Part shown: positions 13,828-56,425 of the stretch, piece after piece
Layout: each line of letters opens with the position of its first letter
Position numbering within the stretch: position 1 is the first letter of the stretch
IMG/VR virus record: IMGVR_UViG_3300037468_000262
Span: 1 to 64,000 of that record
Origin: a virus
Length of the DNA: 64,000 nucleotides
Strand: one strand, 5' to 3'
The notes under the pieces: model-generated
The model's input: only the letters and a program-made list of their open reading frames with translations
What the model was told of the DNA's origin: nothing
The model's database searches: none
Program-made: the position numbers and the translations under genes

Positions 13828-14718
13828 GTGAAACTCGAAGCTGTTATTGTTTGCGTCAACTACTCTGACTTTTTGGCTCATACCCTACCAAGCACTCGAA
13901 ATCAGTTTAATAAGTTTGTAGTCGTTACCGATACTAAGGATAACGATACTAAGAAGCTATGCGAATACTACAACGTAGAATGTGTTCAGACAGACGTATT
14001 CTATGAAGGTAGAGACGCATTCAATAAAGGCAAAGGAATCAATGCCGGTTTAGAACGATTGGACCTTGACGGCTGGGTCATTCACTTAGATTCAGATATT
14101 TACTTACCGCCTCAAACACGGTCAATTCTGGAGAATTTGCCCCTAGAGAATGGGAAAATCTACGGGGCTGACCGTCTAATGTGCCCTGGCTACGAAGAGT
14201 GGTTGAGATTTCTAGATAAACCCTCCCCTATCCAAGACTCTTGGATTTTTATCCACCCGACTAGGTTCCCAGTCGGAGTCCGAATAGCAGAATACAAATC
14301 TTGGCACGGAGGTTATGAGCCCATTGGTTACTTCCAGTTATGGAATCCAAACGGATCAGAAATTTACAGTTACCCAGATAAGCATGGATTTGCCGACCGC
14401 ACAGATGTTCTGCACTGCAAAAAGTGGCCCCGAGAAAAAAGGGAATTGCTTCCTGAAATTCTCGTTATTCACTTAGAAAGCGAAGCCGGAATCGGCCTAA
14501 ACTGGAAGGGCAGAAAGACCCCTATGTTCGGTCCCAAGGTTTCCTTACCTGTCTTATCTTGGTTGGACAAATTATTCTTATTCCTGGATAAATTAAGTAA
14601 GTGTGGTTACAAGGCTAACCTTAAAGCTTCAGGGAAATCAAAGAAAGGGAAACCAAGTGAGTTGAAACGGGGGGGTCCATTAGATAAATCATTGGAAGAG
14701 TGGCTGAGCGGCCGATAG
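13828..14718 (+). CDS. GT-A fold glycosyltransferase-like protein, 296 aa
   Basis: EAVIVCVNYSDFLAHTLPST at the N-terminus is the first strand-loop of a family 2-like fold, and VIHLDSDIYLPP at residues 85-100 is the DxD metal/nucleotide-sugar motif. GGYEPIGYFQLW and VIHLESEAGIGLNWKGRKT follow. The start is GTG behind a TAAAAT -10 and a GAGGG/CCCTC hairpin. Acceptor unknown; in a phage with base-modifying enzymes, a hydroxymethylated base is one possibility. The last eight codons overlap tRNA-Ser. Confidence 0.7.
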   Translation: MKLEAVIVCVNYSDFLAHTLPSTRNQFNKFVVVTDTKDNDTKKLCEYYNVECVQTDVFYEGRDAFNKGKGINAGLERLDLDGWVIHLDSDIYLPPQTRSILENLPLENGKIYGADRLMCPGYEEWLRFLDKPSPIQDSWIFIHPTRFPVGVRIAEYKSWHGGYEPIGYFQLWNPNGSEIYSYPDKHGFADRTDVLHCKKWPREKRELLPEILVIHLESEAGIGLNWKGRKTPMFGPKVSLPVLSWLDKLFLFLDKLSKCGYKANLKASGKSKKGKPSELKRGGPLDKSLEEWLSGR

Positions 14719-17693: not shown

Positions 17694-18155
17694 ATGAACG
17701 AACTCGAAGCCTACGTGATGGTCGGTGCCCCTGGCTCCGGCAAGTCAACCCAAGTTTCCAAGCTGGTAGCGTCTCACCCAGATGCCGTTGTGATTTCCGG
17801 TGATGACATCCGCGCTGAACTCTACGGCGACGCAGACGTCCAAGGCAACTACGTCGAAATTCACGACCGGATGCTGGAAATTCTCGAAGAGAATGTCGGC
17901 CGCACCGTGATCATGGATGGCACCCACTACAGGGCAGCTTACCGCAAGGAAGCTATCGATATGCTGAACTCATACGGGTACAACAAAGTTGTTGCGGTAG
18001 TAGTCGACAAACCTCTTGCTGTTTGTTTGCGGCAGAACTCTTTGCGGGACCGTAAAGTTCCCGAGCATGTGATTGAGCTCATGCACAACTCTTTGCAAGC
18101 TTCCCTCAAGAATATTACCAACGAGCCCTTCCACCGCATTGACTTCGTCTACTAA
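17694..18155 (+). CDS. Polynucleotide kinase-like P-loop protein, 153 aa
   Basis: GAPGSGKST at residues 11-19 is the P-loop; SGDDIRAELYGD (about 36-47) and IMDGTHYRAAYRKEAI (about 76-91) match the acceptor-binding DD and lid regions of the Pnkp/T4 Pnk kinase family. That family moves ATP phosphate onto 5'-OH ends of RNA or DNA. At 153 residues it equals an isolated kinase domain. It is 6 nt upstream of a PPP-type phosphatase, the same order as in fused bacterial Pnkp. Confidence 0.75.
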   Translation: MNELEAYVMVGAPGSGKSTQVSKLVASHPDAVVISGDDIRAELYGDADVQGNYVEIHDRMLEILEENVGRTVIMDGTHYRAAYRKEAIDMLNSYGYNKVVAVVVDKPLAVCLRQNSLRDRKVPEHVIELMHNSLQASLKNITNEPFHRIDFVY

Positions 18156-26679: not shown

Positions 26680-28161
26680 ATGGTAATAGAAAATGCAAGG
26701 CAGACCGCTGCGGCAGTCTGTGATAAAAATATCGAATGCGACAATAGCTGCTCGGTTAGTGAAACCGTTCTCTGTGACTTGCGTTCTCGCCCCGCCCCAC
26801 GCAGGATCAACCTCGACGCACTTTACAAATGCGACCCGAAAGATTACATCGGCTATTTTGCTGACGAAACTTCATACGACAATCTCATTCAAGAAGACTG
26901 CGACGTTTACGTTGCCGGAGTCAAAGTTGTCGCCTTCCGTAAGTCCCTGTTCCCGAAGCTGAAGGAAGGTTCCAAGGGCGATCCGAAGACTTGGGAATAC
27001 TTTCGCTGGGCAGCTCGCGATCTTTACTCGGACCAGCGCGGTCTTGTTGCCGGTCGAGAACTTACCACGGATCTTGAAATCAGGGTCACGAACGGAATCG
27101 TGAACTTTCTTAAGAAGGCCATGGCTGGTCAAGTTACCGAAGTTGAAGAGGCTCTGAAAATTGTTAGCCTCTCCCCAGACCATGGTAAGCTCACGGTTAG
27201 AATCACAGAAGTCAAGAAAGACTACCCGGAAATTGCCAAAGCTCTTGAACCTATCGAGGCAGAACTTCGCAAGAAAGCAACAACCGAAGAAAGAAAAGTA
27301 GAGCTGAAGAAGGCGAAGGGAGAAGAACTTGCAAAGTGGTTCCCAACCTGGCTGTCGCAAACCTGGGCTGGTGCGAAGGATAAAGAGGCTGAAGCCAAGA
27401 GAGCTGATGACAGGTACATTAGCAAGCAGCTACGCTCAAACAAATGCTATTCTAACGTTCTTGGGGCTTTCGATAGAGGGGCAAGAAACCCTTACGGTCG
27501 CTTGACCGCTACCACCCTTAAAAACTACGATGGTTTCGTGGGCCATACAGACATTTATCAGACTGCGTGTGCAGCACTGAAGGAAACCCTGAACACCGAG
27601 GAAAACCCTCGCTGGGATCGCCTTCACAACCGATTCGGCAACGTGAAAGACCCGCACTACAACCTTTTCGGTACGGTGTTTACCGCCCTGACACTAAACT
27701 GGAACTTCCGCTGTGCAATGCACTATGACGGGAACAATTGCGAAGGGGGTATTGCCGTTCTTACTGCAATGACTCAGGGCGAATACGACGGTCATTACCT
27801 GGTGTTCCCAGAAATCCGCTGCGCCTTTGACCTTCGTGACGGGGACTTCATTGCCGGTGACAACCAAGGTTTGATCCATGGTAACACAGCGATGATTCCG
27901 AAAACCTCTGACGCTGAACGGGTCTCTTTCGTTTTCTATTCTCGTGAGCGTATGACCCTGCTTGATGATATGAAGTGCGAAGATTGCCGCCGCGATTTCA
28001 TGAAGTACGCCGCTGAAAACTATACTCAGTACGGCAAGGGACACAAAACCTGGAACGGCGTGTGGCAAGGAATGTGGAAGTCTTCAGAATGGATGAAATT
28101 CAAAGTATTTAATGGAGCGGAGCGTTGCTCAAACACCAACTACTGGGGAACTGAAAATTAA
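26680..28161 (+). CDS. TET/JBP-family dioxygenase, copy 1 (493 aa)
   Basis: MHYDGNN near residue 347 gives the HxD pair, EYDGHYLVFPEIRCAFDLR follows, then RDGDFIAGDNQGLIHGN with the distal His near 400 and AERVSFVFYSR with the 2-oxoglutarate-binding Arg. This is the JBP/TET signature of Fe(II)/2OG enzymes that hydroxylate the methyl of thymine or 5-methylcytosine in DNA. The N-terminal 140 residues are extra to the core, and CEDCRRDF may bind metal. A second, shorter copy follows at 29164. Confidence 0.8.
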   Translation: MVIENARQTAAAVCDKNIECDNSCSVSETVLCDLRSRPAPRRINLDALYKCDPKDYIGYFADETSYDNLIQEDCDVYVAGVKVVAFRKSLFPKLKEGSKGDPKTWEYFRWAARDLYSDQRGLVAGRELTTDLEIRVTNGIVNFLKKAMAGQVTEVEEALKIVSLSPDHGKLTVRITEVKKDYPEIAKALEPIEAELRKKATTEERKVELKKAKGEELAKWFPTWLSQTWAGAKDKEAEAKRADDRYISKQLRSNKCYSNVLGAFDRGARNPYGRLTATTLKNYDGFVGHTDIYQTACAALKETLNTEENPRWDRLHNRFGNVKDPHYNLFGTVFTALTLNWNFRCAMHYDGNNCEGGIAVLTAMTQGEYDGHYLVFPEIRCAFDLRDGDFIAGDNQGLIHGNTAMIPKTSDAERVSFVFYSRERMTLLDDMKCEDCRRDFMKYAAENYTQYGKGHKTWNGVWQGMWKSSEWMKFKVFNGAERCSNTNYWGTEN

Positions 28162-28181
28162 CCTTTAAGATACCGGGAGGG

Positions 28182-28213
28182 GCGGAGTAAACGATGGTAT
28201 ACTCCGCTTTTAT
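28182..28213 (+). terminator. Intrinsic terminator
   Basis: GCGGAGT (28182-28188) pairs with ACTCCGC (28201-28207) around a 12-nt loop, followed by TTTTAT. Confidence 0.75.
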
Positions 28214-28249
28214 ACAGCTACACTAGAACTGAAGTTTAATACGAGGAAC

Positions 28250-28552
28250 ATGTCAAGCTTTGATGACCTATTTGAAGCAACAGAATCTATATTGTCCGAC
28301 TTGTCTAGAAATATGAACGACATACGGGATGAAACTGAAGGACTTGCAAGAGAATATGAGGAACTGCTCACCTTATTGGGAGTTTCTGATCACAAGTCAG
28401 CGGTAGAAGCAATTCATAAGTTGAAATCTGACCCTTGCACTGCCTCGGCTACTGAAAAAATCAAGGTGATTTTTGCAGAGTCTATCTCAAAAGCCCTGGA
28501 AGCTGAGTTTTCTAAAGCCAAAACGTTCCGTGACATTGCAGGCTTAGCTTGA
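28250..28552 (+). CDS. Hypothetical coiled-coil protein, 100 aa
   Basis: Acidic helices throughout (SILSDLSRNMNDIRDETEGL). Lies between the two dioxygenase copies. Unknown. Confidence 0.6.
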   Translation: MSSFDDLFEATESILSDLSRNMNDIRDETEGLAREYEELLTLLGVSDHKSAVEAIHKLKSDPCTASATEKIKVIFAESISKALEAEFSKAKTFRDIAGLA

Positions 28553-28582
28553 ACTTTTCAAATCCTCTACCACACAACAAAT

Positions 28583-28882
28583 ATGACAACTGACAACCTA
28601 GAACAAGCCCCACAGCAAACACAATTTACTGAAGTCACGATTAATTTGCCGACAGACTTTGCTGAGGCTTTGAACTCGCTGGCAGAACGAGAAGGGCTGA
28701 CTGCAGATGCTTTGGTAATGCGATCGCTTGGCCTTTACTCCATGGCATCACAAGCCGAGAGTGGTGGCCACGGTCTAACGTTCACTCGTATCGAAGGTAC
28801 CAACGATTTAACAGTTAAGGAGATGATTCGTATCGAAGATGAGCCCGAATCTAACTTGTTTATTCCAGGTAAGAGGAAATGA
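28583..28882 (+). CDS. Ribbon-helix-helix-like protein, 99 aa
   Basis: TEVTINLPTDFAEALNSLAE followed by LTADALVMRSLGLYSMA fits the beta strand and two helices of CopG-type regulators. A C-terminal extension with LTVKEMIRIEDEPE is shared with the next gene. It could regulate the dioxygenase genes; target unknown. Confidence 0.6.
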   Translation: MTTDNLEQAPQQTQFTEVTINLPTDFAEALNSLAEREGLTADALVMRSLGLYSMASQAESGGHGLTFTRIEGTNDLTVKEMIRIEDEPESNLFIPGKRK

Positions 28883-29100
28883 CTCGAGAAGCAATAGCGA
28901 AAGAATTGCGGGCTACTGATGAATTTCTTGGTGCTCTAGATGGCTTGGCATCGAAAGAAAACCTTTCTAGAGCTGATATTATTCGAAGGGGAGTTGGCCT
29001 TTATGCGCGCATGATCGTAGAGAAGGAGCAAGGGCGTTTTTTTGCTGTTGTTGCAGTAGAAAACGGGGGGTTAACCGTAAAAGAAGTCGTCCAGCCATAG
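28879..29100 (+). CDS. Ribbon-helix-helix-like protein, 73 aa (paralogue of 28583)
   Basis: DEFLGALDGLASKENLSRAD, IIRRGVGLYARM and LTVKEVVQP align with the previous protein. ATGA overlap. The strand part is poorly conserved. Confidence 0.55.
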   Translation: MTREAIAKELRATDEFLGALDGLASKENLSRADIIRRGVGLYARMIVEKEQGRFFAVVAVENGGLTVKEVVQP

Positions 29101-29163
29101 AATTTTGATTAGGCCGTAGTCATTGCAGTCGCGTCCGTCCGTGCCAGCGCTCACGAGTCTTTC

Positions 29164-30342
29164 GTGGAATTTCGGCTAGGATCTCGTTTAACTAAGGGGC
29201 AAGTTGCCTTCTTCGCCGGTGCTTCTGTGGGTTTGATTACCACGCTTGCCCAAGCGCGAGAGGCCCTAGAAAGCTCGGATGAACTTACTAGCAAGACGCT
29301 CAAGATCAAGTACATAAAGAAAGACTATCCAGAACTCGCGGAAAGAATGAAACCCTTGGAGGCAGAAATTCGAACCCTAGGCGCTGACGACCCCAGACTA
29401 GAAAGTCTGAGAAACCAGAGAAGAGATCAACTTTGGAGCTGGTTTGAGCCTTGGTTGTTGGAAACCTGGTTGCCCTCAGAAAACAAAGTAGAAGAAGTTA
29501 AAAAGGTTCTAAGCACGTACATAAGTTCCCAGTTGAACTTTAACCACTGCTACAGTAACGTCCTTGGGGCGATTGACCGTGGGGCGAGATTTCCCTACGG
29601 TCGTTTGAGCGGAACCACTCAAAGGTACTACGAACAGTTCTCAAAGTACAGGGACATTTATTACGAAGCTTGCGAAGGTTTCCGGCATACTTTCCCGGAA
29701 ACATGGAGCAAAGTTAAGGAAGTAATTTCGAGGGTTAAAGATCCCAACTACAACTTGTTCGGCACTGCCTTTACGAGTGTGACTCTAAACTTCAATTTCA
29801 AGACTGCCTACCACGTTGACAAGAACAATTTGAAAGGAGGTCTGGCCGTCTTAACTGCTTTCACAAAGGGTGTTTATGAAGGCCACTACTTGGTGTTTCC
29901 CGAAGTGAGATTGGCCTTCAACTTAAGAGATGGGGACTTTATCGTAGGGGACACTCAAACCTTGCTTCATGGTAACAGCCCCATGACAAAACTTACTGAA
30001 GATGCTGAGCGGGTTTCTCTGGTTTTCTACTCACGAGAGAACATGACCCGATTGGACGATCTTGAGTGCGAAGAATGCCGAAAACAGTTCATGAAGTTTT
30101 CACTTCAGACTCTGAAAGAACGAGGCAAAGATCACAAAGATTGGAGGGGCGTGTGGCAAGGAATGTGGACTTCTCAAGAATGGCTAGACTTTCGAAAAGA
30201 AAGAAACTTGGAATACTGTTCAAACTCCAATTGGCAGCTTTCCTCGCCGTACGAGAACGAAGTTACGAAAGAGGTGAAGCTGTTCAAGGATGATCCCGGC
30301 GAAGGATGGAAACTCGTACAAGTGTTTACACAAGGTCGGTGA
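29164..30342 (+). CDS. TET/JBP-family dioxygenase, copy 2, N-terminally shortened (392 aa)
   Basis: Every core element of copy 1 is present: YHVDKNN (HxD), VYEGHYLVFPEVRLAFNLR, RDGDFIVGDTQTLLHGN and AERVSLVFYSR. The first recognisable match begins at about residue 115 of copy 1, because a TAG (29110-29112) closes the frame upstream and GTG 29164 is the likely start. The catalytic core looks intact, so it may be active with a different target. It ends inside module 8. Confidence 0.75.
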   Translation: MEFRLGSRLTKGQVAFFAGASVGLITTLAQAREALESSDELTSKTLKIKYIKKDYPELAERMKPLEAEIRTLGADDPRLESLRNQRRDQLWSWFEPWLLETWLPSENKVEEVKKVLSTYISSQLNFNHCYSNVLGAIDRGARFPYGRLSGTTQRYYEQFSKYRDIYYEACEGFRHTFPETWSKVKEVISRVKDPNYNLFGTAFTSVTLNFNFKTAYHVDKNNLKGGLAVLTAFTKGVYEGHYLVFPEVRLAFNLRDGDFIVGDTQTLLHGNSPMTKLTEDAERVSLVFYSRENMTRLDDLECEECRKQFMKFSLQTLKERGKDHKDWRGVWQGMWTSQEWLDFRKERNLEYCSNSNWQLSSPYENEVTKEVKLFKDDPGEGWKLVQVFTQGR

Positions 30343-30405
30343 ACCGCCCGGAAGCCTTCGGCTTCTCCCCTTGTTTCTGCTTCGCATAAGCGCTAAACTT
30401 GATTT
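30334..30405 (+). promoter_or_regulatory. Stem-promoter module 8 (leaderless)
   Basis: GAAGCC-TTC-GGCTTC stem (30351-30365), -35 TTGTTT (30371-30376), 17-nt spacer, -10 TAAACT (30394-30399), 6 nt, ATG 30406. The stop of the dioxygenase lies in the 5' part of the module. Confidence 0.8.
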
Positions 30406-30621
30406 ATGACCGAACCGACTGACAAAGCAATGACCCCTGACGAGCGTTATCTGAGCATTGCTCAAGAAGTTTACCTGCATGCTGTTAAGACTTACAGTTC
30501 TTCTTATAATCTCCTGGATATTAATTCCACTCTATTACGAACAGAATTTGATGGCATAGCGGCTATGGCAGACGAGGCAGCTGCTGCATTTAACGATCGC
30601 TTCTTGACCGGACACGAATAA
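30406..30621 (+). CDS. Hypothetical protein, 71 aa
   Basis: Acidic, helical, with ERYLSIAQEVYLHAVKTYSS. Its stop overlaps the next ATG (TAAATG). Unknown function. Confidence 0.6.
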   Translation: MTEPTDKAMTPDERYLSIAQEVYLHAVKTYSSSYNLLDINSTLLRTEFDGIAAMADEAAAAFNDRFLTGHE

Positions 30622-31206
30622 ATGGAAATCTACTTTAGCACAGACGTTGAAACTGACGGGCCGATTCCTGGTCCCAACAGCATGCTCTCCCTGGGGTCAG
30701 CTGCGTTCTCCTCTTCAGGAAAGCTGCTAGCAACCTTCTCGGTGAACCTGGAGACCCTCCCCGGAGCCGAGGCGGACCCCTCTACCCAAGCGTGGTGGGA
30801 GGCCCACCCAGAGGCTTACAGAGCCTCCAGAGAAGGGACCCTACCCCCGGATCAAGCCATGCTTGCCTTTTCACAGTGGGTCACTGCTACGGTTAGTTCG
30901 TACACTCAAGCGACTGGTCGAAGAGTTTCTCCAGTATTCGTCGGGTTCCCTGCAGGTTTTGACTTCTTGTTCGTGTACTGGTACCTCATCAAATTCACAG
31001 GGCAGTCGCCATTCAGCTTCTCTGCTCTTGACGGTAAGACCTATGCCATGGCACTTCTTAAGAAAGGCTACCGGCAATCTACAAAAAGGAATTACCCAAA
31101 AGAATGGTTTCCTCTCAAGGACAAACACACCCACATTGCTCTGGAAGATGCAATTGAGCAGGGTCGTATTTTCTGCAACATGCTGGCCGCAAATGGACAA
31201 TCTTGA
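30622..31206 (+). CDS. DEDDh 3'-5' exonuclease, RNase T-like, 194 aa
   Basis: [20 protein letters not shown] at residues 5-24 contains the DxE motif Exo [11 protein letters not shown] region the second Asp, and [13 protein letters not shown] near 172-184 the Exo III H...D. The family trims 3' ends of RNA or DNA. With phage tRNAs that lack CCA, tRNA 3' maturation is one possible job. Confidence 0.75.
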
Positions 31207-31543
31207 AATTTACAACCGTAAGCTCAAGCTCGTGGTAGAACTGAGGGAACAAGGCGAAGAAGAAGCTGAAGATAGCCTGCTGGAGGAGTTGGACGATCTC
31301 TGGCATACGTTGTACGAATCCGACCGGGCCCAGGCCCAGGCTTTCACCTATACTCTACTTTACGGAACAAACTTCTTCAACCCTATGGGCACTCTTTCAG
31401 AAAAGATGATAGAATACTCTCAGAAAGTTAATGCGTCTTTTAAGGCGCGACTAGAGGGAGATATTCAGACCAGTGAGGCTCTGCTCAAAGAAGTCAAATC
31501 ACTGTGGGAAGAATTAATCTCAGATGAGTTCCAAGAAGAATGA
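31193..31543 (+). CDS. Hypothetical coiled-coil protein, 116 aa
   Basis: ATG 31193 overlaps the exonuclease by 14 nt. Very acidic helices ([20 protein letters not shown]). Unknown. Confidence 0.6.
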
Positions 31544-31605
31544 TAGAGATTTTGGCCGCATTCATAGCCGTTGGTTTACTCATGTTTGTATTATCTGTCC
31601 TTTAA
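31540..31605 (+). CDS. Single-helix membrane peptide, 21 aa
   Basis: [20 protein letters not shown] is one hydrophobic helix; the ATG lies on the previous stop. Too short to be sure, but the coupling is suggestive. Confidence 0.3.
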   Translation: MIEILAAFIAVGLLMFVLSVL

Positions 31606-31617
31606 CTCTTGGCCGCA

Positions 31618-32385
31618 ATGAAAGACCCAACCTTCCTTCTTCAATCCGGTGGCCCGCTACCAACCGAAAAAATTGCCTGCAGCTTCTCGTGTTACCCTAT
31701 AAAGTATTGCTCTTTTACAGACATTGAGAAGTTGGACCCTAAGGAATCCTTGACTCGATTCGTTCCAGTCGGATCCGTAGAGTTCGTTAAAGCCTACAGC
31801 CAGCATATTGGAATTAGACTACCTGAGGACTTCTCCTACGGGATTTGCGATGGTCAACTTGACCAGTTCCTAATGAGGCCTATCCGAAAAGGCACTTACG
31901 GCGAGGCAACTCTAACTGATTTCGTCAAGCCTATTGCAATTAAGATGTTTACAGGCAATGTTAAGGGTCACATTGAGCTAAGTTCAGCGTGCCCCTCCCC
32001 TTCTGAGGATACCCCCGTTTGGATTTCCCCAGCCGTACCATTTGGAGCTGAGTTCCGCTTCTACATTCACGATTTTATCAGGGGTGGTAAAATTCAAGGG
32101 TGGTCTCGATACGATGATTCAAACATGGAATGTCCGGAGCCTGACATCGGCCTGGTTGAAGCCGTAATGAAAGAGTTGGAAGAAAACATTGCTCCGGGTG
32201 CGTACACGGTGGACATCGGATGGAGACCCGACTTGGAACGCTATTGCTTGGTAGAAATCAATGATGCGTGGGCGCTCGGTTTGTATGAAAACTCAGATTT
32301 CCAGTCGAACCCTCCAACCCGACAGCAGTACGCTGACATGTTGGTTTCCCGTTGGAGACAAATTCTTTTCTGTAGCTTGGTATAA
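31618..32385 (+). CDS. R2K-clade ATP-grasp ligase, 255 aa
   Basis: FGAEFRFYIHDFIRGGKIQG near residue 140, YTVDIGWRPDLERYCLVEIN near 200 and the arginine/lysine pattern in MRPIRKGTYGEA fit the R2K group of ATP-grasp enzymes (DUF4343-type). They form amide or peptide bonds through an acyl-phosphate. It is the first of four overlapping genes with a glutamine amidotransferase and two amidoligases, a combination known from predicted peptide-tagging operons. Confidence 0.7.
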   Translation: MKDPTFLLQSGGPLPTEKIACSFSCYPIKYCSFTDIEKLDPKESLTRFVPVGSVEFVKAYSQHIGIRLPEDFSYGICDGQLDQFLMRPIRKGTYGEATLTDFVKPIAIKMFTGNVKGHIELSSACPSPSEDTPVWISPAVPFGAEFRFYIHDFIRGGKIQGWSRYDDSNMECPEPDIGLVEAVMKELEENIAPGAYTVDIGWRPDLERYCLVEINDAWALGLYENSDFQSNPPTRQQYADMLVSRWRQILFCSLV

Positions 32386-33044
32386 TGTGCGCCTTATTTG
32401 GATGTGACCTGGAAGAAGTCACTCAAGACAACATTCAAACAATACAACGCATCGCCCTTGAATCCCAGGTCAGGGGTAAACATGCAACAGGTATTTCCTA
32501 CATTGGGAAAAACGGTCTTGAAACAATCACTGCGCCTGTTTGTGCACAGGAATTTCTGAACATCTATGACATAAATGATTGTGTCTCAGATGACTGTTTA
32601 ACTTTGATTGGCCATTGCCGCTATTCTACCTCTGACATCAGGTACAATCAACCGCTAACGAACGGCTCTCTTGCCATCGCCCACAACGGTGTCATTGAGC
32701 AGTCGCCCCCTGAAACTTGGACAAAGTTTGGGTACGAACTTGAAACTACCAACGATTCAGAACTTGTACTTCGCGCTATCGAAAATAAAGAACAACCCTT
32801 GAAAAAGTTTCCTGAAGCTTCTATGGCTGTATTAGAGCTGAGAGAGAATGGTTCCATGCGCTATTATCGCAATGGAAAAAGACCTTTGTGGAAAAGTGAA
32901 GTCGAAAACGGTTTCTTCCTCACCTCAACGAAAGACATTGCCTTGAGGGCGGGATTGAAGAATCCAGTCCGCTGCCTTCCGGGTTTCCTTTACCAGGGCA
33001 AGGCTGCAACTAAAATAATTGAAGTTGAAGAGCTGATCGCATGA
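32385..33044 (+). CDS. Class II glutamine amidotransferase (Ntn hydrolase), 219 aa
   Basis: Cys2 directly after the initiator Met (MCALFG) is the nucleophile. GHCRYSTSDIRYNQPL near 68-83 and LAIAHNGVIEQ near 88-98 are the glutamine-binding motifs seen in PurF, GlmS and AsnB. There is no synthetase domain, so it probably hands ammonia to, or trims amides for, the flanking ligases. Start and stop overlap its neighbours. Confidence 0.8.
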   Translation: MCALFGCDLEEVTQDNIQTIQRIALESQVRGKHATGISYIGKNGLETITAPVCAQEFLNIYDINDCVSDDCLTLIGHCRYSTSDIRYNQPLTNGSLAIAHNGVIEQSPPETWTKFGYELETTNDSELVLRAIENKEQPLKKFPEASMAVLELRENGSMRYYRNGKRPLWKSEVENGFFLTSTKDIALRAGLKNPVRCLPGFLYQGKAATKIIEVEELIA

Positions 33045-33919
33045 CTTACGACCCTCGAAAGTTTACATACGGGTACGAAATTGAGTGGGGGGACATACCG
33101 AGAGATTTCAACATACCTGAGCACTTGGGAACTTGGGAACATGCGGAAACCGACATCCTTAATTTGCACGGGGACTACGCTCTTAGAGCTGTAGATCCTT
33201 TGGGAACTGACCCACCCATGGGCGGTGAAATAAATACCAAGCCGACGCATACCTGGAAAGAGCAAGTTGAGAGAATCTTAGAAATTCGCGATATGTTCAT
33301 CAACGTCGGACACACTCCGACTGCATCTTTGGTGAACCACGGTCACTTACATGTCTTCGTGCCAGGACTGAAGGAAGACTTGTCAAGCCTACGAAAACTG
33401 GTCTCTTACGTTCGAGATAACCAACAACTAACCGTTGAAAAGTGTTACGGCTACTATGATGACCCGGACATGAAGGGGGCAGTCAGAGGAGCCAAGTCTT
33501 ACCTGAAGCTCGATGGGGGTAGGTTAATGCCCCAGTACATGATCGACAACATATTAAACTTGTCCACGGACTTCAACCACTTGATTAAGTTGCACGCTGC
33601 AGGGAAAGACGGCGTGTCAATGGGACGACCGTTCAGATATGCAATAAACATCTACTGCATGAAACACACAGGTACTGTTGAGTTCCGTTGTTTCAGATCC
33701 AGCGTAAATCGCCGGGAGATCGAAGACCAGTTCCGCTTCGTAGAGGCATTCATTGATGCCGCCCTTAACGACGGCCCACCTGTTGAGACTATTCTCAAAG
33801 AGAACAACTATCAGTTTCCTCCTTATGTCTGGAACAAGGAACACTGGAACGCTTGGGCGCTCACCAAGTGGGACAAGTCCAGGGGCAAAAAAGTCAGAAA
33901 TTACTACGAGGTTCAATGA
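33041..33919 (+). CDS. Amidoligase-like protein 1, 292 aa
   Basis: FTYGYEIEWGD at the N-terminus, GGEINTKPT (about 66-74), HGHLHVFVPG (about 102-111) and GTVEFRCFRSS (about 211-221) follow the order of metal and ATP motifs in the amidoligase (GCS-like COOH-NH2 ligase) superfamily. It likely joins a carboxylate to an amine. The substrate is unknown. It overlaps the next, homologous gene by 4 nt. Confidence 0.7.
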   Translation: MTYDPRKFTYGYEIEWGDIPRDFNIPEHLGTWEHAETDILNLHGDYALRAVDPLGTDPPMGGEINTKPTHTWKEQVERILEIRDMFINVGHTPTASLVNHGHLHVFVPGLKEDLSSLRKLVSYVRDNQQLTVEKCYGYYDDPDMKGAVRGAKSYLKLDGGRLMPQYMIDNILNLSTDFNHLIKLHAAGKDGVSMGRPFRYAINIYCMKHTGTVEFRCFRSSVNRREIEDQFRFVEAFIDAALNDGPPVETILKENNYQFPPYVWNKEHWNAWALTKWDKSRGKKVRNYYEVQ

Positions 33920-34866
33920 TTGAGGCTACTTTCGGAGCTGAATATGAACTCGGAGACGTTAACCGCTTGCTGGAACTACCTGCTGGGGCAAATTGGAACT
34001 TTAAAGATCACAGCATTGCCAATTCTACGGGTATCGCAAATGATGAAAAAGCCAAGTTGTACACCATTGGTGGTGAGATAAACTCTGACCCAACCAGTAC
34101 AATCGAAGGGCAGTTGAGAATATGGGAATCTATAAGGGATTCCCAAAGTCAGATTCACATTAATCACAGGACCAATTTACACTTGCACATTCATGTGCCA
34201 GGGTTGAGAGAAGACCTTGATCCGTTGAAGCGTCTAATGCAATACGTTCAAGAACAACAAGACAGGGTCTATCACTTGATTGAACCCCTGAATCCACCCG
34301 AGAAAGTAAATTACAAAACAGCAGCATCTTTTAAGGGTGCTATGGATCGTTACAAGCGTCGTTTAGTCAGCCACCAAAACAGACTCAGGCCTGCGCAGGT
34401 TAAGTCTTGTATGGAAGCAGTGACTGCTGAAGAGTTTATCAACGGTCACGCACCGAAAAACAAGAAGGGTGAACCCTTGTGGGCCTTGGCAATTAGAGGT
34501 GGAATTAATATATCACAACTTCGCGAAACCAATACAATCGAATTCCGACATTTCACTCCCACTGTAGACATCGAAGAGCTAGAGTGTTGCTTCTCATGGA
34601 TCCATGAATTTATGAACGCAGCATTGGTTACAGGTGAATCTGTCGATAGCATCTACTCAAGAAAGCCCTGGAAGTTCCCACCGTTCGCTGCCTACGACCA
34701 CGACATTGATGTGGTCTTTCGTTGGACAGACTTGGAGAAGAACAAACGTTCCGAAGTGAAACAACGTCTTGATCGTTTGACCGAACACTTTGATATTTAT
34801 TCCCAACCGGCGAGGGATATGTCAGAATTTGTCAGCTTAGAAAGTGGTGGAAAATTAGCTCTTTAA
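33916..34866 (+). CDS. Amidoligase-like protein 2, 316 aa
   Basis: ATFGAEYELGD, IGGEINSDPTST, NLHLHIHVPG and NTIEFRHFTPT line up with the same motifs of the preceding protein, so the two are paralogues that may form a heterodimer or act in sequence. Start ATG 33916 overlaps the upstream stop. The 3' end converges with, and overlaps by 35 nt, the antisense phosphatase gene. Confidence 0.7.
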   Translation: MIEATFGAEYELGDVNRLLELPAGANWNFKDHSIANSTGIANDEKAKLYTIGGEINSDPTSTIEGQLRIWESIRDSQSQIHINHRTNLHLHIHVPGLREDLDPLKRLMQYVQEQQDRVYHLIEPLNPPEKVNYKTAASFKGAMDRYKRRLVSHQNRLRPAQVKSCMEAVTAEEFINGHAPKNKKGEPLWALAIRGGINISQLRETNTIEFRHFTPTVDIEELECCFSWIHEFMNAALVTGESVDSIYSRKPWKFPPFAAYDHDIDVVFRWTDLEKNKRSEVKQRLDRLTEHFDIYSQPARDMSEFVSLESGGKLAL

Positions 34867-35248
34867 TCTGCTGGGCTACTGCGCGATGCACTTCTTCACC
34901 CTTGTGCCTGAACGGATCTTCAACGTTCCAGTTTCGAACCTTCAAGGGATCAACAAAGAAGTTCTTATTTATGCGGTCTACATGCAAATGAGACATGCAA
35001 ATGACTTGATCAGCCCAGTCCAACAATTCTTGGGAGTAAGGTTGTGCGATGTGTTGCTCACCACTGTAACCCATCTCTGCCAAAACCCGTCTCATTTTAG
35101 GAGCCATTCTTGAGTGGTCCACGGCTTGTTTTGAAGTCCCACACGAATCTACTTTGTACAAACCCGTATTATGAAAACTAAGGATAACATGAGCAGCAGC
35201 GCTTCTATTTATATTACCGGTGCAACAAAACAAAACATTAGAGACCAT
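34832..35248 (-). CDS. Low-molecular-weight protein tyrosine phosphatase-like, 138 aa
   Basis: VLFCCTGNINRSAAAHVIL (about 5-23) is the CX5R phosphate loop with the nucleophilic Cys, and NVEDPF near 108-113 holds the general-acid Asp. VDSCGTS and the remaining layout agree with LMW-PTP. Targets include phosphotyrosine and arsenate in other members. It is the only convincing minus-strand gene in the window and overlaps genes on both sides. Confidence 0.8.
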   Translation of the reverse strand: MVSNVLFCCTGNINRSAAAHVILSFHNTGLYKVDSCGTSKQAVDHSRMAPKMRRVLAEMGYSGEQHIAQPYSQELLDWADQVICMSHLHVDRINKNFFVDPLKVRNWNVEDPFRHKGEEVHRAVAQQIKELIFHHFLS

Positions 35249-36250
35249 GTTGATTACCGATTGTTAGAGAATAGAAGGGAGGGTTTTTTGCAGTGGTGGA
35301 TTACCTCAACGGCGGCACTCGACACAGACCCTAGTCTATGGATGATGCGGTACTTGAACGACCGTTATGAGCATAGCACCGAAGAGAAACTTTGGTTCGC
35401 TTGGCTGTTCCACACATATAATTTACCCACATCATGGACAGTTAAGCAGGAATTTCCTGATGAAGAGTTAGCAAGTGTAGAAAGATTCGACACTTTCGTT
35501 GGTGAAAATTACCCCAGAATTCGTCATGAAAAAGACACTAAGTGGTCGCGTGGACACCTGGCAGCAATGTATGCGAGCTACCACGATTGGGTTGGTGAGA
35601 GTACTCAGAGAGACAAATTCTGGGAACTGTGCCAAGGCTCCCCCGAAGAAAACTTCTGGCGTCTTTGGAACTTAGTCATAGAGAAATTCTTCAAGTTCGG
35701 TCGGTACACCACCTTCTTTTACTTACAAACTCTTAAGCAAACGTGTAATTTGCCGTTAGACTGCCCCTCTCTATTTCTGAGCGATTACTTAGGTAGTAAA
35801 AGCCATAGAAACGGTCTTTGCTTCGCGGCTGGAAAAGATGACTGGGTCAATCAAAAGTTGACTCCGGCAGAGTACGCTTGGCTAGAGGGCTTCGGTGCTG
35901 ACTTGCTTGTAGAAGCACATTCGCGGTGGCCCGACTTCAAAGGAGACATGGACAACTTCGCCCTTGAAACCTGTCTGTGCTCCTACAAAAAAGTTTTCCG
36001 GACAGCTAACGGCCGTTATATCAATTATTACAACGATCGAGTCTCTGAGCAAATTGCCAAGGCAGAAGGAGATGGTTGGTCAGGTATCGATTGGAATGTT
36101 TTGCATCAGTGCCGCAGCGAGTGCTCTAACGGGCGTCTTCGTAAAGAAGACAAAATTGACAAAACAAAAATGCACCTCTTCGTTGATCAAGGAACTTTTC
36201 ACTTCCTTTGGCATGGCAGCGAACTAACTCCGCTTACTGGGAACCTGTAG
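35171..36250 (+). CDS. Amino acid:DNA transferase-like (ADDT-type) protein, 359 aa
   Basis: REGFLQWWITSTAALDTDPS, then LNDRYEHSTEEKLWFAWLF and YNLPTSWTVKQEFP, resemble the ADDT/glutamyl-putrescinyl thymine transferase group of phage hypermodification enzymes (compare EExxWFAFL...TS). These replace a phosphate on 5-hydroxymethyluracil in DNA with an amino acid or polyamine. The kinase expected to make that phosphoryl-hmU lies directly downstream. Recognition is from motif memory, so family assignment is moderate. Start could be ATG 35171 or 35189. Confidence 0.6.
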   Translation: MKTKDNMSSSASIYITGATKQNIRDHVDYRLLENRREGFLQWWITSTAALDTDPSLWMMRYLNDRYEHSTEEKLWFAWLFHTYNLPTSWTVKQEFPDEELASVERFDTFVGENYPRIRHEKDTKWSRGHLAAMYASYHDWVGESTQRDKFWELCQGSPEENFWRLWNLVIEKFFKFGRYTTFFYLQTLKQTCNLPLDCPSLFLSDYLGSKSHRNGLCFAAGKDDWVNQKLTPAEYAWLEGFGADLLVEAHSRWPDFKGDMDNFALETCLCSYKKVFRTANGRYINYYNDRVSEQIAKAEGDGWSGIDWNVLHQCRSECSNGRLRKEDKIDKTKMHLFVDQGTFHFLWHGSELTPLTGNL

Positions 36251-36283
36251 GGCTATACTCATCTTGTAACACACTCACACACA

Positions 36284-36771
36284 TGAAACTAACTCACTAC
36301 TTTGGAGTGCCCGGTTCCGGGAAGACGACGTTGATGCGACAAAAACTCGAAATTCTCCGTTCCGTTGAAGCAGACGAGTTTGTCAAAGAGGGTTTCATAG
36401 CCTACCATAAATTCACCCAACAAAAAACTATCGTCCTAGGGTGCTACGACGAAAGAACTTTTTCTGGCACTGACACGTGGTCGAAATCGGCTGGCCCCAA
36501 GTTTCGCCAATGGCTACTCGATAATTCTGAAAGGTATGTGGGTTGGGAGGTCTTTTCGGAAGGAGAGAGGCTGTCGAACAGCCCTACCTTAGATGCAATG
36601 TTCGCCACGGGGGACATGACGCTTGTTCTTGTTCAAGTTAGCGACGAAGAACTTGAGAAAAGAAGAGCAGCCAGGAATAACACCCAAAACGAGACTTGGA
36701 TGAAAGGTATGCAAACTCGGATGAACAACCTTGCCCAAAAGTACACTCATACCGTACTCATCAACGATTGA
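36284..36771 (+). CDS. 5-hmU DNA kinase-like P-loop protein, 162 aa
   Basis: YFGVPGSGKTTLM (about 6-18) is the P-loop; FSGTDTWSKSAG (about 61-72), EVFSEGERLSN and the C-terminal RAARNNTQNETWMKG...RMNNL follow the pattern of the 5-hmdU DNA kinase family (GTD-S and EGDR motifs, with RRxxR-N near the end). That family phosphorylates 5-hydroxymethyluracil in DNA. It sits 33 nt after the ADDT-like gene. Confidence 0.65.
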
Positions 36772-56155: not shown

Positions 56156-56425
56156 TTGACCCCTTCTACTCTGGTATGGGTGACATTAATCGCGGTCTTC
56201 ACTTATGCTGCCTCGCGAGACTCTAATGTCATTACATACCTTTTTCTACTGTCCGAGCGGCTACGTTCTTCCGTGCTGGGATCCAAATATTACTTAACCC
56301 AGAACCCAGATCACTTCTGGGTAAGGGGGAGAATCAGTGAAAACGCAGACAAAGACGCTCGCAAACTCTCAAAAGAACTTGGTTTAGACAAAAACAAGGA
56401 CTGGTACGATGACAACGGTAATTAA
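56156..56425 (+). CDS. Membrane-anchored protein, 89 aa
   Basis: TTG start; one or two membrane helices in residues 3-34, then a soluble charged tail (ENADKDARKLSKELGLDKNK). Overlaps the next gene by 17 nt. Confidence 0.5.
   Translation: MTPSTLVWVTLIAVFTYAASRDSNVITYLFLLSERLRSSVLGSKYYLTQNPDHFWVRGRISENADKDARKLSKELGLDKNKDWYDDNGN

Follow-up and report, generated by a model that had tools for sequence, protein, structure and literature searches.

The DNA analysed here, called the window, comprises positions 1 to 64,000 of the IMG/VR virus record IMGVR_UViG_3300037468_000262, a fragment of 70,656 bases. The locus under study lies at 26680-36771, where genes of two TET/JBP-type dioxygenases are followed by genes of candidate DNA-decorating enzymes. 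A preliminary description had placed two such dioxygenases at 26680-30342, and this was confirmed: the Pfam family Tet_JBP gave exactly two matches in the whole record, both over the cut-off of 34.9 bits, in the following open reading frames (ORFs).

26680-28161, forward strand: TET1, an intact TET/JBP-type dioxygenase of 493 amino acids, assigned by Tet_JBP match, predicted model and match to the human TET2 structure
29164-30342, forward strand: TET2, a 5'-truncated TET/JBP dioxygenase of 392 amino acids with a GTG start, assigned by Tet_JBP match

TET1 scored 51.4 bits (E 9.7e-14) and TET2 67.8 bits (E 8.5e-19). The two proteins are 49% identical over 354 columns, and each keeps the HxD motif, distal His and Arg, as had been noted earlier (H348/D350/H400/R414 in TET1, H217/D219/H269/R283 in TET2). 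A profile of 32 phage TETs matched human TET2 with E 4.9e-6, aligned at the HxD and the His/Arg stretches. The models of both proteins matched TET structures, in searches whose lists cannot exclude other folds. The TET1 model (pLDDT 87.0, pTM 0.79) aligned with human TET2 (4nm6_A) with Z 19.9 and a root-mean-square deviation (rmsd) of 3.9 over 260 residues, and the TET2 model (pLDDT 80.9) with Z 12.7 and rmsd 3.4 over 180 residues. TET1 combines the profile match, the HxD...H...R motif and the TET fold; TET2 has the profile match and the catalytic motif, and its catalytic fold is incomplete, the N-terminal part being lost (6 of 25 invariant columns absent, and a late start relative to human TET2). 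The nearest cultured TET, that of Synechococcus phage S-CBWM1, is 58% identical to TET1. When 84,980 genomes of bacteria and archaea were scanned for TET, the 101 pattern matches included no relative.

Database names at these genes were also recorded. The TET2 region was matched by PHROG 6059 (1.2e-7), whose name, queuine tRNA-ribosyltransferase, is probably wrong. The TET genes of S-CBWM1, DLP6, Cr30 and HTVC112P (records H1, H3, H5 and H7) are annotated 'SNF2 DNA repair protein', seemingly a misannotation that has spread. In a TET subgroup (L247, L248, L249, L250 and L253), Ser stands in the column of the 2-oxoglutarate (2OG)-binding Arg (R414 of TET1), perhaps through an alignment shift.

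The decorator genes of the next 6.5 kb (32385-36771) had been missed in the preliminary description. They encode a glutamine amidotransferase (GATase), two amidoligases, an amino acid:DNA transferase (ADDT) and a kinase, and are listed here with their neighbours; some relatives carry a cassette with a TET-associated glycosyltransferase (TAGT).

30622-31206, forward strand: exonuclease-like protein (Rv2179c-like, 3.2e-7), by synteny the gene that bounds the TET2 insertion of relatives on its downstream side
31618-32385, forward strand: ATP-grasp ligase of the R2K clade (R2K_3, 9.3e-22), located beside both ADDT-type and TAGT-type cassettes
32385-33044, forward strand: class II GATase with N-terminal Cys2 (GATase_6, 35.1 bits; cut-off 27)
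33041-33919, forward strand: amidoligase 1 with a GYEIE motif (Amidoligase_2, PF12224, 17.4 bits; below the cut-off of 22)
33916-34866, forward strand: amidoligase 2, a paralogue of amidoligase 1 (amidoligase 1 profile, E 8.1e-35; no Pfam match), its start taken from the ATGA overlap
34832-35248, reverse strand: low-molecular-weight phosphatase (LMWPc, 2e-15), also in ADDT-type relatives
35171-36250, forward strand: ADDT of the aGPT-Pplase2 type (PF18724, 64 bits; cut-off 26.2)
36283-36771, forward strand: P-loop kinase of 162 amino acids, presumed to be a 5-hydroxymethyl-pyrimidine DNA kinase (33% identical to Wooper gp4)

The GATase has both the GATase_6 profile and the Cys2 of class II glutamine amidotransferases, and this Cys was present in 73 of the 73 rows with a letter at that position (76 rows in the alignment). 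Relatives of amidoligase 1 in viral contigs are 55-66% identical to it, and the one in L162 scored 20.1 bits against PF12224 (cut-off 22). The ADDT, a member of PF18724 by its score, shares 28% identity with the protein named aGPT-Pplase2 in a Klebsiella phage, and a PDB sequence search with it gave no convincing match. The kinase is about 33% identical to gp4 of Gordonia phage Wooper, which is annotated '5-hmU DNA kinase', and its homologue in L162 matched Ploopntkinase3 with 2.3e-17. TET, ADDT and base kinase thus stand together in one locus (26680-36771). NCBIfam gave no name to the TETs, the ADDT, the amidoligases or the cassette kinase.

Some observations touch these decorators. What looks like a base kinase at 36283-36771 goes under other names elsewhere: 'terminase small subunit' for PHROG 800 and 'adenylate kinase' for homologues in actinophages. 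A kinase gene at 56409 and a PNK-like gene at 17694 were considered as cassette kinases and rejected, both being present also in the TAGT-type relative G001. A family 2 glycosyltransferase gene at 13828-14718 (4.9e-6) is 88% identical in G002, has no G001 match and is a possible further decorator; it had no PF20691 match at E<=0.01, in a scan of this gene only and not of the whole record.

We infer from this gene content that the locus encodes a phage DNA-base hypermodification pathway starting inside DNA, in which TET, kinase, ADDT and amidoligase decorate thymine, and we give this reading a probability of about 0.6. TET1 would first hydroxylate a pyrimidine in DNA at its 5-methyl group; the base is most likely thymine, which would give 5-hydroxymethyluracil (5hmU). 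The hydroxymethyl group would then be phosphorylated by the P-loop kinase at 36283, and the phosphate would be displaced by ADDT with an amino acid or a related amine. Ammonia would be released by the GATase, and one or both amidoligases would amidate or extend the attached carboxylate. The choice of thymine, the nature of the attached amino acid, the amide and indeed all the chemical steps are predictions of this model, and the purpose of the pathway is presumed to be protection from host restriction.

The recurrence of the operon was examined in viral contigs. The search with amidoligase 1 alone matched 102 stretches, from which 80 loci were kept, two of them (L159 and L228) close kin of the window. 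TET was present in 67 of these loci, ADDT in 68, GATase in 75 and kinase in 58; TET, GATase, amidoligase, ADDT and kinase were all present in 49 of the 80, in exactly this order in 40. The search with TET alone gave 80 loci from 223 TET relatives, with flanks of 6 kb and many short contigs. ADDT was found in 54 of them, GATase in 51, kinase in 38, amidoligase in 31 and TAGT in 8, while 14 had none of these five; ADDT and TAGT occurred together in 0 of the 80. The amidoligase had only two distant matches in the phages collection (50,697 records), so that, within the records searched, only uncultured viruses seem to have the full operon. Several operons hold a GNAT acetyltransferase gene after amidoligase 1 (L162:10863-11405, Acetyltransf_10 2.9e-13; similar ORFs by eye at L211:10833-11399 and L235:10857-11369); none was seen in the window cassette.

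These counts bear on the possibility that the GATase and the amidoligases have nothing to do with DNA and act instead on the cell wall of the host or on metabolites. Cell-wall or metabolite modification is the published view of phage amidoligase/GATase pairs and was suggested for phiEco32-like and OM43 phages (PMC10580990). The tight co-occurrence of the pair with TET, ADDT and kinase and the overlapping starts and stops argue against such a role here, which we regard as quite improbable.

The cassette varied among relatives of the window. The ADDT cassette is shared, with common neighbours, by the window and its 201 kb relative (L019/G002). In the 277 kb relative (L018/G001) and in L024, L028 and L029, the same site, which follows the ATP-grasp gene, is occupied by a TAGT cassette resembling gp9-gp12 of S-CBWM1. 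Besides the TAGT itself (L018: PF20691 4.9e-10), this cassette encodes a nucleotidyltransferase-like protein, an APH-type protein and one that looks HAD-like by eye but has no Pfam match. The TAGT was found at 96-100% identity in eight contigs of the window's group. Such a swap at one site is expected if TET makes a shared handle for different decorators. Its product may then be a hub, with entire decorator cassettes of the glycosyl or the amino-acyl/amide kind being traded among genomes that are syntenic in other respects. This proposal is joined to a broader one, of a pathway widespread in uncultured phages in which thymine would be oxidised in DNA, phosphorylated, joined to an amino acid, and then amidated or extended with glutamine-derived nitrogen. 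We advance the two together only tentatively, as a possibility short of even odds. If true, a carboxamide or peptide-like thymine would be a base not previously described. Gene order also breaks just upstream of the TET locus: window 125-25520 corresponds to G001 63201-45599, inverted, and the part from 25627 onward to G001 from 144633.

The substrate was considered from the enzymes that could prepare it. The record, itself a fragment, and the 201 and 277 kb relatives had no match to the C5-methyltransferase family (PF00145) or to thymidylate synthase (TS)-type enzymes (PF00303), in agreement with the earlier remark that no hydroxymethylase was seen in the window and with its suggestion that hydroxylation occurs on DNA. 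PF00145 was also not found in 8 TET records, 7 records of window kin or 20 operon records, and PF00303 was found in 1 of the 8 (Cr30), 0 of the 7 and 0 of the 20; the window's own record belongs to both the set of 8 and the set of 7. In a control set, each of 10 cultured phages with ADDT and/or kinase had either a TS-type enzyme or a Tet_JBP match, never both. Six Ackermannviridae- or Vibrio-type phages had the TS-type enzyme and no Tet_JBP match, while four actinophages (MO526, Mycobacterium phage Lolalove, Wooper and Terij) had no TS-type enzyme but did match Tet_JBP, at E<=0.01 and with scores under the curated cut-off; for Terij, TET and kinase were seen and ADDT was not tested by family search. 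Because of this either/or distribution and the lack of C5-methyltransferase and TS-type matches, TET most likely substitutes for the hydroxymethylase, and the substrate of TET1 is most likely thymine in DNA rather than 5-methylcytosine (5mC).

Several points weigh against the thymine pathway. The sub-threshold scores of the actinophage TETs are one, and the score of amidoligase 1, 17.4 bits for a cut-off of 22, is another. Most of the viral contigs are fragments, and the count of the GYEIE motif is partly built in, one search pattern having contained most of it. The 277 kb relative has no ADDT, and ADDT is therefore not needed to keep TET. Furthermore, Caulobacter phage Cr30 carries both TET and a TS-type enzyme, and a weak TAGT-like gene lies beside its ADDT (PF20691 E 8.5e-4, below the cut-off); therefore neither exclusion is absolute. 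Finally, TET may act on 5mC made by a host methyltransferase, which could supply it, or by an unrecognised phage enzyme, and the cassette would decorate 5-hydroxymethylcytosine. The nearest structures, human TET2, Naegleria Tet1, CcTet and CMD1, are all 5mC enzymes, and both window TETs have Asn at the fifth position after the HxD His (H+5), as human TET2 does in the alignment. In addition, the characterised phage TETs of Burke et al. 2021 reportedly act on 5mC and are said to occur with C5-methyltransferases. Among 32 aligned phage TETs the H+5 residue was Asp in 20, Asn in 10 and Ser in 2, and no substrate was read from it. The lack of PF00145 matches in the 8, 7 and 20 records speaks against 5mC, as does the fact that ADDT and kinase are otherwise tied to thymidine pathways (PMC6449724, PMC11955845). 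We therefore hold thymine to be the better candidate and 5mC to be unlikely.

The second dioxygenase gene is an altered copy, and three ORFs lie between it and TET1.

28250-28552, forward strand: 100-amino-acid protein, present in some relatives by tblastn, no Pfam match
28583-28882, forward strand: ribbon-helix-helix (RHH)/CopG-like protein A (RHH-A), kept directly downstream of TET1 in relatives (tblastn synteny)
28879-29100, forward strand: RHH-B, a remnant of the TET2 start followed by an RHH protein (RHH_1 E 0.005, below cut-off; alignment with the TET2 of relatives)

The preliminary description had named two CopG-like proteins as the content of this interval. The two proteins do resemble each other (similarity score 74, maximum of 500 shuffles 44), but only RHH-B reaches RHH_1, below the cut-off; the ORF at 28250-28552 is there as well, and relatives have one RHH gene. 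Intact TET2 is a single frame of 495 codons in four relative contigs of two lineages (L015, L016, L017 and L018), where it starts beside that one RHH gene. The old TET2 start is kept in the window, with 32 of 33 bases identical to L015, but it runs into the RHH-B ORF. From codon 108-111 of the relatives' gene onward the sequence is again homologous to TET2, so that RHH-B stands in place of codons ~11-108. The lost part holds 6 of the 25 columns invariant across 32 phage TETs (G58, D73, A111, R120, G121 and G125), and it corresponds to human TET2 before residue 1278, because the alignment with human TET2 begins at residue 1165 for the TET1 model and only at 1278 for the TET2 model. With its first ~110 codons exchanged for an RHH gene, TET2 of the window is probably unable to act alone as a full TET. 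The two CopG-like proteins appear, from these alignments, to be one normal neighbour and the agent of the TET2 truncation.

The contig was assembled from environmental sequence, and the truncation might be an artefact of joining two strains, in which case TET2 would be whole in the actual phage. The TET2 core shows no relaxed selection in the pairs that include the window, which would fit this. However, the replacement is gene-like, as the RHH-B frame begins on the old TET2 ATG with the 32 bases in common. TET2 is broken also in L019 and L020, there by single-base homopolymer gaps that are possibly sequencing errors. An artefact at the window is in our judgement improbable. The homopolymer gaps also led us to drop, as a firm pattern, the proposal that TET2 is broken in all ADDT-type phages. 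In G002, 44 orthologues of window genes were counted as whole and 4 as split; the corresponding counts were 27 and 0 in G001 and 17 and 0 in L023, by a filter that did not flag the gaps of L020.

Among the 13 window-related contigs with a readable site, the window included, 7 carry TET2, and in the other 6 the RHH gene is directly followed by the exonuclease gene. The seven carriers comprise four single-frame copies of two lineages, two with single-base homopolymer gaps, and the window with its replacement. Between the window and L018, synonymous divergence (dS) is 0.52 for TET2, 1.90 for TET1 and 1.68 for the exonuclease gene, which fits exchange between lineages; by this measure the TET2 copies diverged more recently than the genes around them. 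Purifying selection on the TET2 core is strong in 10 of 10 pairs (ratio of nonsynonymous to synonymous divergence, dN/dS, 0.038-0.081). The tandem arrangement had been described as a duplication. The two genes are indeed related, but the second is 5'-truncated, and a recent tandem duplicate was rejected, since in the tree the second TETs of the window, L015 and L018 form one group (100/100), to which neither TET1 nor S-CBWM1 gp8 belongs; this tree, in which long branches meet, leaves the branching order of the groups open. On these data TET2 looks like an older accessory paralogue moving between related phages.

It had also been suggested that the two copies serve separate substrates or sites, or form a heterodimer. 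Their divergence, the purifying selection on the TET2 core and the existence of a second phage with tandem TETs would agree with this, and in a heterodimer TET1 might supply the part that TET2 has lost. Yet TET2 is truncated in the window and missing from 6 of the 13 readable relatives, it accompanies both decorator types among relatives with a readable cassette, and the catalytic and H+5 residues are alike in both copies. As an accessory gene, TET2 therefore gives no support to either idea, and we consider both very unlikely. The second tandem pair lies on an unrelated 249 kb contig (L254:4318-9598), where two full-length TETs of 454 and 469 amino acids in a row are followed by GATase and ADDT.

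The combination of TET, aGPT-Pplase2 and kinase is a known annotated set; what appears to be new is the amidating branch, the exchange of cassettes and the presence of TET in genomes larger than 200 kb. Iyer et al. 2013 reportedly predicted TET-started hypermodification and may cover the link of amidoligase with TET; no description of the three was found in the literature searched. In a 2021 survey of 224 jumbo phages, TET/JBP hydroxylases were reported absent (PMC7824862); the metagenomic contigs of 201, 249 and 277 kb that carry TET bear on this report. The almost clean either/or distribution points to TET as a substitute for the nucleotide-level hydroxymethylase at the start of thymidine hypermodification. 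Moreover, phage amidoligase/GATase pairs, whose role has so far been guessed to be cell-wall or metabolic, gain a testable role in DNA modification, and new sets of base-modifying enzymes would be useful DNA tools and relevant to the restriction resistance of phages.

Compared with known systems, the window TETs share the fold and the metal/2OG motif of the eukaryotic TET/JBP enzymes (human TET2, NgTet1, CcTet and CMD1) but are only 10-14% identical to them in structure alignments. In phages M6, ViI and phiW-14, 5-hydroxymethyldeoxyuridine (5hmdU) is thought to be made before replication and passed to a 5hmdU DNA kinase and then to transferases (PMC6449724), and 5-(2-aminoethoxy)methyldeoxyuridine (5-NeOmdU) makes up about 40% of thymidine in Vi01 and CBA120 (PMC11721090). 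The 5-NeOmdU pathway of Ackermannviridae (ViI, CBA120) has an ADDT homologue 27-28% identical to that of the window, and a hydroxymethyl pyrimidine is the presumed handle in both; in the Ackermannviridae, 5hmdU is made before replication (PMC6449724), and the tested records have the TS-type enzyme and no Tet_JBP match. Pelagiphages are described with thymidylate synthase and aG/PT-PPlase1, not TET (PMC9599517).

The actinophages come closest in gene content. The same set of TET, ADDT and kinase in Rhodococcus phage Tonitrus was called a thymidine hypermodification system (PMC11955845). Tonitrus (gp1-5) and Wooper (gp1-4) resemble the window in clustering TET and ADDT with a kinase of this family. 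The Wooper cluster consists of ParB, a Tet-like protein, aGPT-Pplase2 and the gp4 kinase, and Wooper, like the window record, has no TS-type enzyme. The actinophage set has one TET and the window two, and no ParB was noted beside the window TETs. Profiles of GATase and amidoligase built from viral operons had no match in the Wooper or Terij stretches. In Microbacterium phage MO526 (L010:8044-12763), TET, ADDT, a FAD-dependent DAO-like oxidase and kinase stand in a row. S-CBWM1 (gp8-gp12), a phage TET with TAGT, carries its decorator cassette directly downstream of TET, as the window does, but this cassette consists of glycosyltransferase, phosphatase, nucleotidyltransferase and APH-type protein, and the S-CBWM1 record has no ADDT. 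CmoX and CmoY of cyanophage S-B43 offer a parallel to the proposed last step: CmoY joins glycine to 5-carboxymethylcytosine, and some homologues have a glutamine-hydrolysing domain (PMC12783734). The principle shared with the window would be ATP-dependent amide formation at a carboxyl group carried by the base, reached by different enzymes: CmoX is a C5-methyltransferase homologue and CmoY is asparagine-synthetase-like, whereas the window has TET, ADDT and Amidoligase_2-like proteins and no C5-methyltransferase.

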